Source: Kangiella geojedonensis (GTDB lineage: Bacteria; Pseudomonadota; Gammaproteobacteria; Enterobacterales; Kangiellaceae). Taken from it: a DNA stretch of 64,000 nt. The stretch is from assembly GCF_000981765.1 (NCBI RefSeq), contig NZ_CP010975.1:2170001-2234000 (forward strand), read 5' to 3'. Made by a program: the position numbers and the translations under genes. The stretch's first letter is position 1; the number at the start of each line of letters is the position of its first letter. Positions 33,836-39,879 of this stretch are shown in pieces. The notes under the pieces are model-generated. The model was not told where the DNA came from and did no database searches. It was given only the letters and a program-made list of their open reading frames with translations.

Positions 33836-33989
33836 AAATCTAAATATTGCGTCTACTATTTATACTGTTAGAATTTCTACATTCTAACATCAAGCTCGCG
33901 GAATACAGCAGGTTTATCAGGGTATCGCCAGCTTGGGTTATGTTAAAATAGCGATATATTACTTAATGGGGTTTCTTAAAGGACTCAGT

Positions 33990-34319
33990 ATGTCACATTT
34001 ATGTTTAGTTACAGACATCAAAGACGGTCAAGCCAAAGCATTTCCACACCCTTCGCCGAGCGAAGACCGCGACCTGATCATCGTCCGCCGCGGACTTAAC
34101 GTCTATGGCTACGTCAACCGCTGCCCTCACGCCGGAACCAACCTAAACTGGCAAGAAGACGAGTTTATGACGGATGACGAACAATACCTCATGTGCTTTA
34201 CCCACGGCGCCCTATTTGAACCCGACACAGGACGCTGCGTCGCAGGCCCCTGCGCTGGCGCTCACCTAAGTGAAGTGAACCTAGAAGTCGAAAACGGCAA
34301 AGTGTTTTATGGGGAGTAA
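33990..34319 (+). CDS. Rieske [2Fe-2S] protein
   Basis: About 109 residues. The two cluster-binding boxes are CPHAG and CFTHGALF, giving the two Cys and two His ligands. It resembles the small NirD/ferredoxin-like soluble Rieske proteins. The frame begins at 33933, but ATG at 33990 has AAGGA upstream and yields MSHLCLVTD, a normal start. No partner oxygenase is adjacent. In related genomes such a gene often lies near sfsA, and here the two are separated by the AT-rich secretion island, marking a likely insertion point. Confidence 0.9.
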   Translation: MSHLCLVTDIKDGQAKAFPHPSPSEDRDLIIVRRGLNVYGYVNRCPHAGTNLNWQEDEFMTDDEQYLMCFTHGALFEPDTGRCVAGPCAGAHLSEVNLEVENGKVFYGE

Positions 34320-34359
34320 ACTGTAGATGCTTAAATAACAAGTCCACAAACCGCTGCTA

Positions 34360-36474
34360 CTATAGGTTCGTTAGCTCAAATAATCTATTATCTCTTAATT
34401 CAAGTACACGGTCAGCCATTGATATGGTTTGAGGCCTGTGCGCAATAATAATTCTAGTTATATTTAACGCTTTTACTGTATCATTAACTTTGCGCTCTAA
34501 GTCTACATCTAAACTTGAAGTAGCTTCATCCAAAAATAAAATACTGGGGTTATTATACAATGCCCGAGCAAGCAAAACTCTTTGCTTCTGCCCCCCAGAT
34601 AAATTACTACCCATATCTCCTATATATGAATAATAACTCATTGGCATTTTTATTATATCATCGTGAATAAAAGCTCTCTTAGCACATGACTCAACCTTCG
34701 AACGGTCTATGTTAGGATCAAAAAAAGATATATTGTCAGCTATACACCCTGAGAATAACTGATCATCTTGCATTACAGAGCCTATGGACATTCTATACTG
34801 CTTCAGTCCTAAATGGTTAATATTAATGCCAGAGCTTCTTACTTCTCCTGTTTCTGGCTGTAACAAACCCAGCATAACTTTCATTAAAGTTGTTTTGCCG
34901 CTACCTGACGCACCCACTATCGCAATCGACTCCCCCTTTCTAATTCTAAGGTTTATATCCTTGAAAATGAAGTTATCGTGTTCACTATACTTAAAGCTTA
35001 CATTGTCTAGAGCAAGCTCTCCTGAGTCATTCTGAATCTCTCCTCCAAGCTTCTCCAAATTGAACTCCGCATCTGTTTGAGTTATGTCTCCTAATCTCTC
35101 TAGATGCAGAGATAGCATTTTAAACTGGATAAGCTTTTCGACTAAAGCTCCAATTTTTTCGATAAACTGGCCCTTATAGGACATATATGTATAAAGCATA
35201 CCTATCGTCATAGCAGCGCTCATTACCTCTAAAGCAGCTATGTATATAATTATAATGTTTTCAATACCAAATATTGAACTTTTTATAAATGAGAAAGTAA
35301 TATTGAATCTTCCCAGTTTAATCCCACTATTTATACTTTCCGCAAAATGGTTCTGCCAAACTGAATGCCTTTCTGCCTCCTTTCCAAATAGCTTTATACT
35401 CTGGACTCCCTTAACTGATTCCATAAAGTTTGATTCTTCTTTAGCATCTAGCACAAGAAGTTCTTCGTTTAACTGTCTATACCTTCTGTAAAGGGAAAGC
35501 CTGATCAATAAATATATAAAGGATATAATTAGAACTAATGTACTCAATAAAGGACTATAAAAGTACATCACTATTATCAATCCAACAGCTAAGAAACCAT
35601 CAACGAGAACCTCTATCACCCCTGTTGTAAGCAAATTCTTTATATAGTCAATAGAGCCGAATCTTGAAATAACATCACCAATATGCCTACTTTCAAAATA
35701 TTTCATTGGTAATCTTAAAAGGTGTCTAAATAAATTAGATGCCATTTCAGCACTAAGCTGACTACCAAGGAATAAAATCACTAGCCCTCGAACAGCAGCT
35801 ATTAACACTTTGAGAATCACTAAAAAACCAAACCCAATTGCTAAAATGCTAAGTAGTTGATAATCTTGGTTAATCAACACCTCATCGATCACCAGCTGCA
35901 TATATAATGGACTTAACAGACTTATTAGCTGTAGTGCTACTGAAAACAAAAGAATTTTCAGCATTGCTGGTCTTAGTCCTCTAATTGAGGACCACAAATC
36001 AGAAATATTTGTTTTTTTTGTGATCTTCTTTTTTGTAAAACTACTTGAAGGTTTTATCTCTACTGCAACTCCAGTAAAATGCTTTGAAACTATTTCAAAA
36101 GACAACTCTCGCCTACCAGTTGCGGGGTCATGTATCACTATTCCTTTTTTTGTAACAGACTCTAGAACAACAAAATGGTTTAAATCCCAGTGTAATATAC
36201 AAGGAGTTTTCAACTGTTTTAATTCATCAATCTCAAGTCTGACGGCTCTCGCCGCCATACCTATATAGTCAAAAATATTAATTATACCTTTTAATGTTTG
36301 TCCTTTTAATGAACTAGAATAATTCGCACGCAAACTATTTAAGTCTATACAGTAACCATAGAATGTAGCTACCATTGAAACACATGCCAGTCCACATTCA
36401 GCAATCTCTGTCTGCAATACAACTGGGAGAGAACTTTTATTTTTAAATTTTAAAAGAGATGAAATTGAAATCAT
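34360..36474 (-). CDS. Peptidase-containing ABC transporter for a double-glycine peptide
   Basis: 704 residues. The N-terminal C39 peptidase domain has the catalytic Cys27 in QTEIAECGLAC, His100 in LNHFVVLE and Asp116 in IHDPATG. Then come six membrane helices and an ATPase with GASGSGKTT, LSGGQKQR and ILFLDEATS. Such transporters cut the leader after Gly-Gly and export the peptide, as CvaB does for colicin V. It is the last gene of the island: precursor, CPBP protease, HlyD adaptor, exporter. Only four bases separate it from the adaptor stop. The stretch is strongly AT-rich and uses A/T-ending codons, unlike its neighbours, suggesting acquisition by transfer. Confidence 0.96.
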   Translation of the reverse strand: MISISSLLKFKNKSSLPVVLQTEIAECGLACVSMVATFYGYCIDLNSLRANYSSSLKGQTLKGIINIFDYIGMAARAVRLEIDELKQLKTPCILHWDLNHFVVLESVTKKGIVIHDPATGRRELSFEIVSKHFTGVAVEIKPSSSFTKKKITKKTNISDLWSSIRGLRPAMLKILLFSVALQLISLLSPLYMQLVIDEVLINQDYQLLSILAIGFGFLVILKVLIAAVRGLVILFLGSQLSAEMASNLFRHLLRLPMKYFESRHIGDVISRFGSIDYIKNLLTTGVIEVLVDGFLAVGLIIVMYFYSPLLSTLVLIISFIYLLIRLSLYRRYRQLNEELLVLDAKEESNFMESVKGVQSIKLFGKEAERHSVWQNHFAESINSGIKLGRFNITFSFIKSSIFGIENIIIIYIAALEVMSAAMTIGMLYTYMSYKGQFIEKIGALVEKLIQFKMLSLHLERLGDITQTDAEFNLEKLGGEIQNDSGELALDNVSFKYSEHDNFIFKDINLRIRKGESIAIVGASGSGKTTLMKVMLGLLQPETGEVRSSGININHLGLKQYRMSIGSVMQDDQLFSGCIADNISFFDPNIDRSKVESCAKRAFIHDDIIKMPMSYYSYIGDMGSNLSGGQKQRVLLARALYNNPSILFLDEATSSLDVDLERKVNDTVKALNITRIIIAHRPQTISMADRVLELRDNRLFELTNL

Positions 36475-36478
36475 AAAG

Positions 36479-37714
36479 CTATAAACTTTCTCTTAATTGA
36501 TATAAGGGCTTTAATATCCAGTCAATCAGTAGCCTTTCTTCCAAGACGACTGTTGCTGATAAACTCATACCGGCTCTTAGTTGATAGGTTTTTCCTAAGG
36601 TCTCAACACTTTGTTTATTAAGTTTCACTTTTACTATATACATAGGCGACTTAAGATTTACAGGTGCATCAATATCAGCTGGCGCAAGAGGAGTATCAGA
36701 CACACTTATAACTGTGCCTTCATATACACCAAAGTGCTCATATGGGAAGGAGTCATATCGTATTTTTACAGAAAGTCCAGGCTTCACAAATCCAACTGCT
36801 CTAGAAGGCAAGTAAATTTCTGCCACTAACTGCATATCTACAGGAATAATAGTCGCCAACAATTTATTTGGTGAAACATTATGTCCCACTTCAGAATTTA
36901 TCGTCGTCAAAGAACCACTAATAGGAGCTTTGATTAGATACTGAGAGCCCCTTTTAAGCTCAATCAACCTTTCATCTAGTTTATTAATTGAGGACTTTAT
37001 AGTATTAGTATTAATTTCATTTTCTAGTGGGAGTGATTTCAGTTTAGAGCGAGCTTCAGACAACTTAAGATCGTGTGCAAGGAAAGATGCTTGGTAGTTC
37101 TCCAAAGCTGACCTAGCACTTAAATAAGCTTCTTTTGCTTGTGTTAGCTCTGTTTCAGTGATTAACTCCCTCTTCCTAAATAACTCATATTCTTTAAGAG
37201 TTTCTTTCCTAAGTTTTTTTGCATCAGTTAAAGAAAAAAGCCTTTTTTCCATAAGTCTTTTCTGCTCAAGCAAGCCTACCTCTTGAGCTTTCAAATTACG
37301 CAGTTTTTCTTCATATTGTTTTTTTTCAATTAATAGTTCTTCTTGCTTTTTCATGAGTTGCTCTTTAACATTCAATATCAAAAGCATATTGGCAGAACTT
37401 TCATCTAATTTTTTACTAGTATCAATAGAAAATAATTTATCACCCTTATTTACTTTATATCCCTTTCTAGCATGACTATTCACTATTATACCGGCATCAT
37501 TACCATAAACTTTTACAACCCCACTTTTAGGAACCAACTGCCCTACAGCGACCTGCTTCTTAGCATACTTCTTTGTGCAGATTAGGAATATAGCCAGCGC
37601 TATAACTAGAAATAACAAGTACATCCAGTAAGAAGAGAATCCATGCTTAATTATTACAACATCCCCCTCTAATTTTTTACTCTTACTTTCTAACACTTCC
37701 TTTCTAAAAAGCAT
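36479..37714 (-). CDS. HlyD/CvaA-type membrane fusion protein of the peptide exporter
   Basis: 411 residues: a short cytoplasmic part, one transmembrane helix at about 31-49, a beta-barrel/lipoyl half around residues 60-100, a long coiled-coil hairpin of about 130 residues, and the return lipoyl half with KAPISGSLTTINSEVGHNVS. This protein would bridge the ABC transporter and an outer-membrane TolC-type channel. The TolC partner is not in the window. The start overlaps the CPBP stop by 11 bases, so translation is coupled. AT-rich like the rest of the island. Confidence 0.93.
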   Translation of the reverse strand: MLFRKEVLESKSKKLEGDVVIIKHGFSSYWMYLLFLVIALAIFLICTKKYAKKQVAVGQLVPKSGVVKVYGNDAGIIVNSHARKGYKVNKGDKLFSIDTSKKLDESSANMLLILNVKEQLMKKQEELLIEKKQYEEKLRNLKAQEVGLLEQKRLMEKRLFSLTDAKKLRKETLKEYELFRKRELITETELTQAKEAYLSARSALENYQASFLAHDLKLSEARSKLKSLPLENEINTNTIKSSINKLDERLIELKRGSQYLIKAPISGSLTTINSEVGHNVSPNKLLATIIPVDMQLVAEIYLPSRAVGFVKPGLSVKIRYDSFPYEHFGVYEGTVISVSDTPLAPADIDAPVNLKSPMYIVKVKLNKQSVETLGKTYQLRAGMSLSATVVLEERLLIDWILKPLYQLRESL

Positions 37715-38510
37715 TTTTATACCAACTTAACGCCCTATCTATAAATGAGTACACAATCAAAATAAATGCCAAAACAGAAAGATCAAATCTAATACTGGAA
37801 ATAGCAGTATCAAACGAATTATTGTTATAGTCGTCTTTAATTATTATAGAAGAGGGGCTATCTACACCTGTAAAAATAACCACCATATTGAAAAGCAAAT
37901 GAAGTCCCACTGCAAAAGATATCGACCGGAAAAGATAGGTTACATACGAATACAACAATGCTGATACTATCAAGAACCAAGAGTTTTTAAGATCGATTGA
38001 ATGCCAAAGTGCAAATAATATAGCGGAAACCAAGCAGCTTATAATAAGCTTCATCCCTAAAGCTTGAGATAACTCTACTAAATACTTCCTAAAGAATAAC
38101 TCTTCAAATATTACCACTATAAAAACAGAGTAAATTAGTAGTAGGCTATCTACTTTCAGGTCACCTAAATTACCCAAACCATCATCAAATATTATGCTCC
38201 TTAAATAACTCACAACAAAACAAGTAAATATACCAGACAAGAATAAGAGATAAGTTCTTTTATCTTTTAGGCTATTCAGTAAATTTTTTTTCAATTGTAT
38301 CCGATATACTAGTATAAGACCTATTACACATAATGAATAAAATATTGTATCCATTATTATTAAATCTTCATTCCCTAGCAGAGGCTCCCTAGCGCTTCCC
38401 CCCAGTATATTGACGCCTATGAAATACGATATAAGTATTATAAGAAAGAATATAACTAGATAAGTCAATGCTGATAGCAACCATTTTTTTACGTAATTAT
38501 TATTTTTCAA
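37704..38510 (-). CDS. CPBP (Abi) family intramembrane protease in the bacteriocin operon
   Basis: 268 residues with about seven membrane helices. The three CPBP motifs are visible: EExxxR as EELFFR (136-141), FALWH (166-170) and HxxxN as HLLFN (204-208). CPBP proteins are Rce1-like glutamate proteases, and in bacteriocin clusters some act in self-immunity. The start is TTG at 38510, the first possible codon after an in-frame stop, with GAG six bases before; this start is uncertain. It lies between the precursor and the exporter genes, so it may provide immunity, process the peptide further, or be a maturation partner. The sequence does not tell which. Confidence 0.85.
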   Translation of the reverse strand: MKNNNYVKKWLLSALTYLVIFFLIILISYFIGVNILGGSAREPLLGNEDLIIMDTIFYSLCVIGLILVYRIQLKKNLLNSLKDKRTYLLFLSGIFTCFVVSYLRSIIFDDGLGNLGDLKVDSLLLIYSVFIVVIFEELFFRKYLVELSQALGMKLIISCLVSAILFALWHSIDLKNSWFLIVSALLYSYVTYLFRSISFAVGLHLLFNMVVIFTGVDSPSSIIIKDDYNNNSFDTAISSIRFDLSVLAFILIVYSFIDRALSWYKNAF

Positions 38511-38613
38511 TCTTTTCTCAATCAGTTAATTCTAGTAATGGAAGCTTACTAGTCTTCCAGCGAATATTAAGACTTAATAATGTGAGTTCATCATCACTAA
38601 ATATCAAAATAGA

Positions 38614-38633
38614 AGGAGACCGATAGGTCTCCT
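38614..38633 (-). terminator. Hairpin between the precursor gene and the export genes
   Basis: AGGAGACC (38614-38621) pairs perfectly with GGTCTCCT (38626-38633) around GATA. Reading the minus strand, TCTATTTTGAT follows, a weak T-run. It lies 13 bases after the precursor stop. A leaky terminator here would give more precursor than exporter, as is common in bacteriocin operons. Confidence 0.65.
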
Positions 38634-38645
38634 AAAAAATGACCA

Positions 38646-38834
38646 CTACTTTTCTTTCTGTTCGTCATCTTCTTTCTTTTCGTCATCGCCGCTTGAGATC
38701 CAGCCCCAAATTAATTCTCCAGCAAAAACAATCCAGCCCCAACGACCACCAGGTCTTTTCTTTGGTCGCTCTACCGGACCATCATCATTACCTCCAGACA
38801 CCAAATCTAACTCTTGATCGAGTAATTCTCTCAT
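38646..38834 (-). CDS. Double-glycine leader peptide precursor (microcin/class II bacteriocin-like)
   Basis: 62 residues. The first 15, MRELLDQELDLVSGG, match the colicin V-type leader (MRTLTLNELDSVSGG) and end in the Gly-Gly cleavage site. The predicted mature peptide has 47 residues: a Pro/Lys/Arg-rich start (16-31), a hydrophobic, tryptophan-rich core (32-48) in which WGWI occurs twice (32-35 and 43-46), and a very acidic/lysine-rich tail (50-62). There are no cysteines. AGGAGA lies seven bases before the ATG. The exporter genes follow on the same strand. A second GG (29-30) is a less likely cut site. Antibacterial activity is inferred; the mature sequence resembles no peptide I know. Confidence 0.85.
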   Translation of the reverse strand: MRELLDQELDLVSGGNDDGPVERPKKRPGGRWGWIVFAGELIWGWISSGDDEKKEDDEQKEK

Positions 38835-39138
38835 TAGAAATCTCCTATTAATTTAATCTTTTCTCCATGTTTCCATGTCGAAGTTATGTTTATAAAAATT
38901 GTTAAAGCGCTTCAACGATGCGAAATATATCTCAAGTCACTTTAGACTTACAACTAAATTTAAGTATCAGTTTGTATCGGCTTAGATGATTGAGAAATAA
39001 GGCACATATGCATTAATATATATTTATGCTAGCATTATTCTTTGTACATTAAGATAGAAGCAGTATAGAGTACTTTTTTAACAATACGAGCTCTACATTT
39101 CTATAAGATTTTATTATAGATAATTTTAAGGACTTAAC
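38835..39138. other. Intergenic region between the precursor gene and sfsA
   Basis: These 304 bases hold no gene that I can support. On the minus strand they contain the ribosome site and a possible promoter for the precursor; on the plus strand they must hold the sfsA promoter, of which only poor candidates are visible. The stretch is very AT-rich, with TATA-like runs around 39010-39030, and probably contains the right edge of the inserted island. No direct repeat or tRNA end marks the junction. Confidence 0.5.
38924..38953 (-). promoter_or_regulatory. Candidate sigma-70 promoter of the microcin-like operon
   Basis: On the minus strand, TTGTAA (38953-38948) and TATATT (38929-38924) are 18 bases apart; they match four and five of six consensus bases. 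Transcription would start near 38917, giving a leader of about 80 bases. The region is AT-rich, so chance matches are likely. Confidence 0.35.
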
Positions 39139-39879
39139 TTGAAATTCTCTCCACCATTAATAAAAACCACTTTACTCAAACGCTACAAACGCTTTTTGGC
39201 GGATGTGGTGAGCAATGAGCATGGTGAATTTACGGCGCATTGTCCGAATACAGGTTCGATGAAAAACTGCTGGCAAGAAGGTGATACGGCTTGGTTGTTG
39301 GACTCACAAAACCCGAAGCGTAAGTATTTATACACTTGGGTGTTGAATCAGAATATTCAGGGCGATTGGATTTGCATCAATACACACTTGGCTAATCAGG
39401 TGGTCAGCGAGGGCATCGAAAACGGAGTATTAGAGGAGCTGCAAGGTTATGAGTCTTTGCGCCAAGAAGTTAAGTACGGTGAAGAGAATAGTCGGATAGA
39501 TTTGCTCTTAACAGATCCCAATAAGCCAGATTGTTATGTGGAGATTAAAACCGTGACATTGCTTGAGTCTGGCGACAACCCCGACTCAGGCGAGCTATTT
39601 GAGCCTGGCGCAGGCTATTTTCCAGACGCCGTCAGCACTCGCGGTCAAAAGCATATTCGTGAATTAGTCAGCATGGTTGAGCAGGGTCATCGTGCGGTTT
39701 TATTGTTCCTCGTACAGCATACCGGCATCCGCTCAGTCAGCCCTGCGGCCCATATTGACCATAAATATGCTGAATTATTGTACGATGCAGCACAAAAAGG
39801 GGTTGAAATTTATGCATATAATACCCATATCAGTGCCGCAGAGATTAAGCTGCAACAGGCCTTACCAGTAATTTTGTAG
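39139..39879 (+). CDS. sfsA: SfsA family DNA/RNA nuclease (sugar fermentation stimulation protein)
   Basis: 246 residues close to SfsA: KFSPPLIKTTLLKRYKRFLADV, HCPNTGSMK and VEIKTVTL. Its nuclease-like fold binds DNA; the role in maltose metabolism of E. coli is old and uncertain. The start is TTG at 39139; AAGGA lies eight bases upstream, and the E. coli start aligns exactly. The sfsA-dksA-gluQ order is conserved in many gammaproteobacteria. GC content returns to normal at this gene, which marks the end of the island. Confidence 0.95.
   Translation: MKFSPPLIKTTLLKRYKRFLADVVSNEHGEFTAHCPNTGSMKNCWQEGDTAWLLDSQNPKRKYLYTWVLNQNIQGDWICINTHLANQVVSEGIENGVLEELQGYESLRQEVKYGEENSRIDLLLTDPNKPDCYVEIKTVTLLESGDNPDSGELFEPGAGYFPDAVSTRGQKHIRELVSMVEQGHRAVLLFLVQHTGIRSVSPAAHIDHKYAELLYDAAQKGVEIYAYNTHISAAEIKLQQALPVIL

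Follow-up and report, generated by a model that had tools for sequence, protein, structure and literature searches.

Microcin-like operons and the Kangiella locus

The operon of colicin V (microcin V), a class IIa microcin, comprises CvaA, CvaB, CvaC and Cvi and combines a double-glycine (GG) leader with a C39-peptidase ABC exporter, an HlyD-type adaptor and a TolC-type protein of the host. Class IIa microcins act at the inner membrane (PMC10233263), and only about 10 class II microcins, most of them from Escherichia coli, are counted as verified in PMC9746304. Here, we analyzed a 64-kb stretch of the Kangiella geojedonensis genome (contig NZ_CP010975.1, positions 2,170,001 to 2,234,000; the window) in which the spacer between a Rieske gene and sfsA is filled by minus-strand genes. 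In order of transcription these are a peptide precursor, followed by a hairpin, a CPBP-family membrane protease, an HlyD-type adaptor and a peptidase-containing ABC exporter (Table 1). We read them as a class II-microcin-like bacteriocin operon with CPBP immunity and give this reading a probability of close to 0.7, building on the observed genes, motifs, leader, genomic site and distribution. Judged from sequence, the operon almost certainly makes a secreted double-glycine peptide, this peptide is quite likely antibacterial, and the operon is probably functional. The locus shares with colicin V the leader type, the exporter with its C39 triad, the adaptor and the predicted use of a host TolC-type protein. 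In contrast to colicin V, it is chromosomal and forms one operon with the precursor first, its 47-aa core is unrelated and shorter, and a CPBP gene stands in place of a Cvi-like immunity gene.

The original prediction, made from the DNA letters alone, had called the locus an undescribed microcin-like island. While the label microcin-like island holds and the peptide is indeed undescribed, the combination with CPBP is already in print. Aliivibrio wodanis pAWOD920 (AWOD_p920_61-66) likewise encodes a C39 transport peptidase, an HlyD protein, a GG-motif precursor and a CAAX/Abi-family protease, for which a role in self-immunity is proposed in PMC4462113. It differs by two additional mceI/mceJ-like maturation genes and by a Gly/Ser-rich precursor of 112 aa whose core is unrelated to that of Kangiella; its protease gene was missing in the PLSDB gene table, and the reading frames yielded only fragments. 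A partly similar set, consisting of a CPBP protein with a C39 transporter and a peptide, is described for Bacteroides sp. 2_1_56FAA (PMC4573289). Looking for the same four genes in other genomes, as had been suggested, revealed complete sets in two more gammaproteobacteria (locus L121 of genome G042 and L128 of G409), each with an M-R-x-L...-E-I leader precursor, a CPBP gene (PF02517, 66.9 and 37 bits, respectively), a C39 ABC exporter and HlyD. Both differ from the Kangiella operon in their cores and in gene order, which on one strand is HlyD-precursor-CPBP-ABC in L121 and precursor-CPBP-ABC-HlyD in L128, and their CPBP proteins align with ours at 22% over 95 aa (L121) or without significance (L128). 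A literature search for a Kangiella microcin or bacteriocin found no such locus.

Two further systems are relevant for comparison. Cdz of Caulobacter crescentus also exports small proteins through a type I system and has a membrane immunity protein, but it is described with two glycine-zipper proteins, surface aggregates and a three-helix CdzI (PMC5380434), compared with a single precursor here. The CPBP/Abi immunity proteins of Gram-positive class II bacteriocins belong to the same family and have the same catalytic motifs (Kjos 2010, as reported in citing papers), whereas the present gene lies in a Gram-negative operon with an HlyD adaptor and its function is putative. The locus adds a marine-type gammaproteobacterial candidate microcin with an unrelated core. 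It represents no new kind of system; its main interest is a testable claim of CPBP immunity in Gram-negative bacteria, for which it offers a concrete candidate that would escape genome-mining rules which cap immunity proteins at 250 aa (PMC9746304).

Precursor and export machinery

All four predicted genes were found in place on the minus strand by open reading frames, Pfam searches and the leader motif. The Gram-negative GG motif M(R/K)ELX3E(I/L)X2(I/V)XG(G/A), as quoted in PMC4462113, matched once in the window, at the precursor, and never in 300 dinucleotide-shuffled versions of the 4.8-kb insert. A looser leader rule combined with a ribosome-binding site also gave a single match in the window, compared with a mean of 0.01 per shuffle. 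The proposed likeness to colicin V was borne out as well, with 10 of 15 leader residues shared with colicin V, whose leader was taken from an E. coli plasmid.

Twenty genomes of the genus were searched with leader profiles. A profile of 13 leaders, our precursor included, retrieved this precursor (E 8e-6) and two precursors of the congener G011 (1e-5 and 4e-5), with one background match at 0.58 (G018). Because this profile contained its targets, it was rebuilt from 10 leaders, all from outside the genus. The precursor (E 0.0115) was then the only match at E <= 1 in the K. geojedonensis genome, one G011 precursor was found (E 0.0019) and the second missed, and background matches appeared at 0.51 (G004) and 0.79 (G007). 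Leader matches clearly above background thus occur only in the two genomes with the exporter, and exporter homologues at E <= 1e-60 are present in exactly these two, K. geojedonensis itself (G000) and G011. While no Pfam family was assigned to the precursor, its leader marks it as a real gene and not a chance frame. Conservation in relatives had been put forward as a test of this frame: the type of frame is kept beside the closest exporter relative, that of G011, with its two double-glycine precursors, but the core sequence is conserved in no relative found.

Pfam identified Peptidase_C39, ABC_membrane and ABC_tran in the exporter gene and HlyD_3 in the adaptor gene. The exporter is identical to CvaB at 295 of 691 aligned residues (42.7%) and the adaptor to CvaA at 99 of 400 (24.8%), confirming their assignment to the CvaB/CvaA type. 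Cys32, His105 and Asp121 of CvaB align with Cys27, His100 and Asp116 of the exporter, and this C39 triad as well as the Walker A, signature and Walker B motifs are all intact. The best solved structural relatives of the exporter are PCAT-type transporters. Plasmid records matching it at E <= 1e-50 number 2429, a count that includes haemolysin-type exporters. Elsewhere, the genome encodes four outer-membrane efflux proteins, each with both OEP repeats.

In the proposed mechanism, the C39 domain would bind the 62-aa precursor through its leader, with cleavage after Gly-Gly, and the 47-aa core would leave via the exporter, the HlyD adaptor and one of the TolC-type outer-membrane proteins of the cell. 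The core, a short Trp-rich hydrophobic stretch between charged ends, would most likely target the inner membrane in competing close relatives. CPBP, translated with the exporter genes, would most likely protect the producer.

The CPBP gene as candidate immunity gene

The original prediction saw no separate immunity gene, which is probably wrong because the CPBP gene is a natural candidate and the only one adjoining the precursor and export genes. The protein matches PF02517 (Rce1-like) with 49.5 bits (cut-off 22.4; E 5.5e-13) and contains EELFFR, FALWH and HLLFN, corresponding to the EExxxR, FxxxH and HxxxN motifs. By sequence, no solved structure matched at E <= 0.1, and no relatives were found on plasmids or in viral contigs. 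Among 394 genomes of the order, only two carry relatives at E <= 1e-12, namely K. geojedonensis and its congener G008.

We asked how CPBP is distributed across exporter loci. A set of genome contigs yielded 23 such loci, of which 18 near-full ones were counted after L072-L076, with a partial exporter match, had been dropped. By motif search, none of the 18 has CPBP beside the exporter; a leader-type precursor lies within reach in 8. A further 20 loci, not counting our own, came from 369 genomes of the class; Pfam confirmed CPBP in two of them (L121 and L128), in both cases directly 3' of the precursor, and a leader-type precursor is present in 8, one of them weak (L133). The counts for the class are lower bounds since this search scored only three candidates per genome, and several of its contigs end near the exporter. 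Further CPBP-motif lines in L118, L127, L129 and L130, along with an additional one in L128, resembled antisense frames of G+C-rich genes and do not enter these counts. As a separate observation, fifteen tiny GG-leader precursor frames, several of them exact duplicates, lie in a row downstream of a 54%-identical exporter in Colwellia sp. TT2012 (L058 11425-17558).

The genomic site provides a second line of comparison. Both flanks were readable in 18 of the 20 genus genomes, our own counted, and the Rieske-sfsA spacer measures 11-26 nt in six of these and at least 190 nt in the other 12. At this site, G011 (L036) has an exporter and an adaptor 58% and 36% identical to ours, no CPBP, and two precursors of 80 and 89 aa with other cores, whose leaders together with the first four core residues match ours at 9 of 19 and 10 of 19 positions. 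A CDSG(S/N)VDS motif and another Cys are common to both G011 precursors (L036 10119-10714), which may therefore be a related pair containing a disulfide. G011 also encodes a 102-aa protein with a signal-like N-terminus (L036 9796-10104), and a homologue (33%, E 5e-11) stands alone at the same site in G009 (L042 7550-7864). It matched no Pfam family above cut-off and is a candidate periplasmic immunity protein. In G008 (L037), the site holds only a frameshifted CPBP homologue (43% over 75 aa and 53% over 144 aa). A GGDEF/EAL-like gene, its domain names read from sequence without a search, is found at the site in three congeners and G011. Based on these contents, the spacer is a variable cargo site of the genus that gains and loses peptide loci as well as lone candidate immunity genes. 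In G018, two frames encoding 332 and 282 aa, both with a hydrophobic N-terminus, fill the spacer (L041 5406-7295).

CPBP is separable from the exporter, as at the same site G011 has the exporter without CPBP and G008 has CPBP without the exporter. Its distribution ties it to some peptides rather than to the exporter, which would fit an immunity gene or a peptide-specific enzyme. We favor, by a modest margin over even odds, that CPBP is the immunity protein of the producer, because members of this family are reported to confer bacteriocin immunity (Kjos 2010, through citing papers) and because a lone CPBP gene persists in G008. Several points weigh against this reading of the operon. SilX, a CPBP protein of Streptococcus anginosus, is described as required for activity of the bacteriocin but dispensable for immunity (PMC9298176). 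The immunity proteins of verified class II microcins span 51-216 aa with no shared sequence (PMC10233263), compared with 268 aa here. The CPBP distribution draws on three congeners only, the frameshift in G008 could be a sequencing error, and the core has no relatives that would show its conservation.

The SilX precedent keeps a role in production possible. The best-surviving alternative, in our view unlikely, is accordingly a bacteriocin operon in which CPBP acts as a second processing protease or production factor and immunity comes from elsewhere or is unneeded. The intact catalytic motifs are compatible with this, and the 11-nt overlap of the HlyD and CPBP genes ties CPBP to the export genes. 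However, its absence from the G011 exporter locus and from all 18 genome-contig loci indicates that such export needs no CPBP, and G008 retained CPBP alone at the site, as it might an orphan immunity gene. Returning to CPBP as an immunity protein, we tentatively propose, at somewhat less than even odds, a broader picture: CPBP proteases would recur in Gram-negative class II microcin-like operons as an exchangeable immunity module, travelling with the peptide rather than the exporter and persisting as orphans at a cargo hot spot after loss of the weapon, and the Trp-rich core would be the founding member of a separate microcin family.

The core peptide and the genomic insert

The predicted core of 5.4 kDa falls inside the class II microcin range (about 5-10 kDa), has a pI of 4.8, contains no Cys and consists of a Trp-rich hydrophobic stretch followed by an acidic/basic charged tail. 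Its end (DDEKKEDDEQKEK) lacks the Ser/Gly-rich C-terminal siderophore motif of class IIb. The 18-residue stretch WGWIVFAGELIWGWISSG has a mean Kyte-Doolittle hydropathy of 0.88 and a low hydrophobic moment, which suggests membrane insertion rather than an amphipathic surface helix. In line with the original prediction, no close relative of the core emerged from the databases and genomes searched. Pfam and NCBIfam gave nothing credible, one weak NCBIfam match (12.1 bits, cut-off 32) covering the leader only, and neither did viral contigs or plasmids. Matches at E <= 1 occurred in 7 of 61 related genomes including our own, the best other at E 0.14 and none credible. Among 369 genomes of the class, four matched including our own; of the other three (E 0.003-0.015), two lay within or next to unrelated genes, one for a secreted repeat protein of 544 aa and one for a transporter, and the third (L079) was a frame with internal stops.

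The peptide could instead be a signal (pheromone) or surface-adhering factor without antibacterial action, which we consider improbable. Double-glycine exporters carry antimicrobial and signalling peptides alike (PMC6363468), and with 9 K+R and 12 D+E the core is not strongly cationic. Nevertheless, the operon has no sensor kinase or regulator, the middle of the core is hydrophobic, and the patchy distribution with cores differing between congeners at the same site is bacteriocin-like. Far less probable is a Cdz-like contact-dependent system whose exported peptide remains on the producer surface and kills on contact. Cdz uses the same secretion type, exports small proteins and has a small immunity protein in the membrane (PMC5380434), and glycine-rich hydrophobic cores occur beside some exporter relatives (L056, L121 and L127). 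The Cdz proteins, however, are two glycine-zipper proteins of 84-86 aa (PMC5380434), whereas here a single precursor is found and the composition of its core shows no Gly-rich zipper pattern. That the locus is a decaying remnant no longer making the peptide is hardly credible, as all four frames are open and the catalytic and ATPase motifs intact, even though, at the same site, G008 has only a frameshifted CPBP and six genomes have a bare spacer.

Table 1. Features of the Rieske-sfsA region, in window coordinates
Feature	Position	Strand	Basis
Precursor, 62 aa: 15-aa double-glycine leader (MRELLDQELDLVSGG) and 47-aa predicted core	38646-38834	-	open reading frame, motif and shuffles, leader profile, composition
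Ribosome-binding site AGGAGA, 6 nt 5' of precursor ATG	38841-38846	-	read from sequence
Terminator-like hairpin in precursor/CPBP gap	38614-38633	-	terminator scan
CPBP (Rce1/Abi-type) membrane protease, 268 aa, TTG start; proposed immunity protein	37704-38510	-	PF02517, motifs, remnant homologue at same site in G008
HlyD/CvaA-type membrane-fusion adaptor, 411 aa	36479-37714	-	open reading frame, Pfam, alignment
Peptidase-containing ABC exporter (C39, transmembrane and nucleotide-binding domains), CvaB type, 704 aa	34360-36474	-	Pfam, alignment
AT-rich insert in Rieske-sfsA spacer	34320-39138	.	G+C, flank comparison across genus
Rieske gene, flank of insert	33933-34319
sfsA, other flank of insert	39139-39879

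The four-gene set was probably acquired. G+C content is 34-38% in three 2-kb windows over the insert compared with 41-48% in the remaining ones of the 64-kb stretch. No tRNA was found in the window and no flanking repeat resembling a mobile-element border around the insert; a 41-nt inverted pair (71%; 34792-34832 and 39029-39069) was judged to be chance. A promoter scan was uninformative (11 sites versus 19.8 in shuffles). The hairpin was the sole site in a terminator scan of 34200-39300, but shuffles of the region average 2.7 terminator-like sites, so that the scan by itself is no evidence of function. By its position between the precursor and CPBP genes, the hairpin may attenuate read-through, resulting in more precursor than transporter being made.

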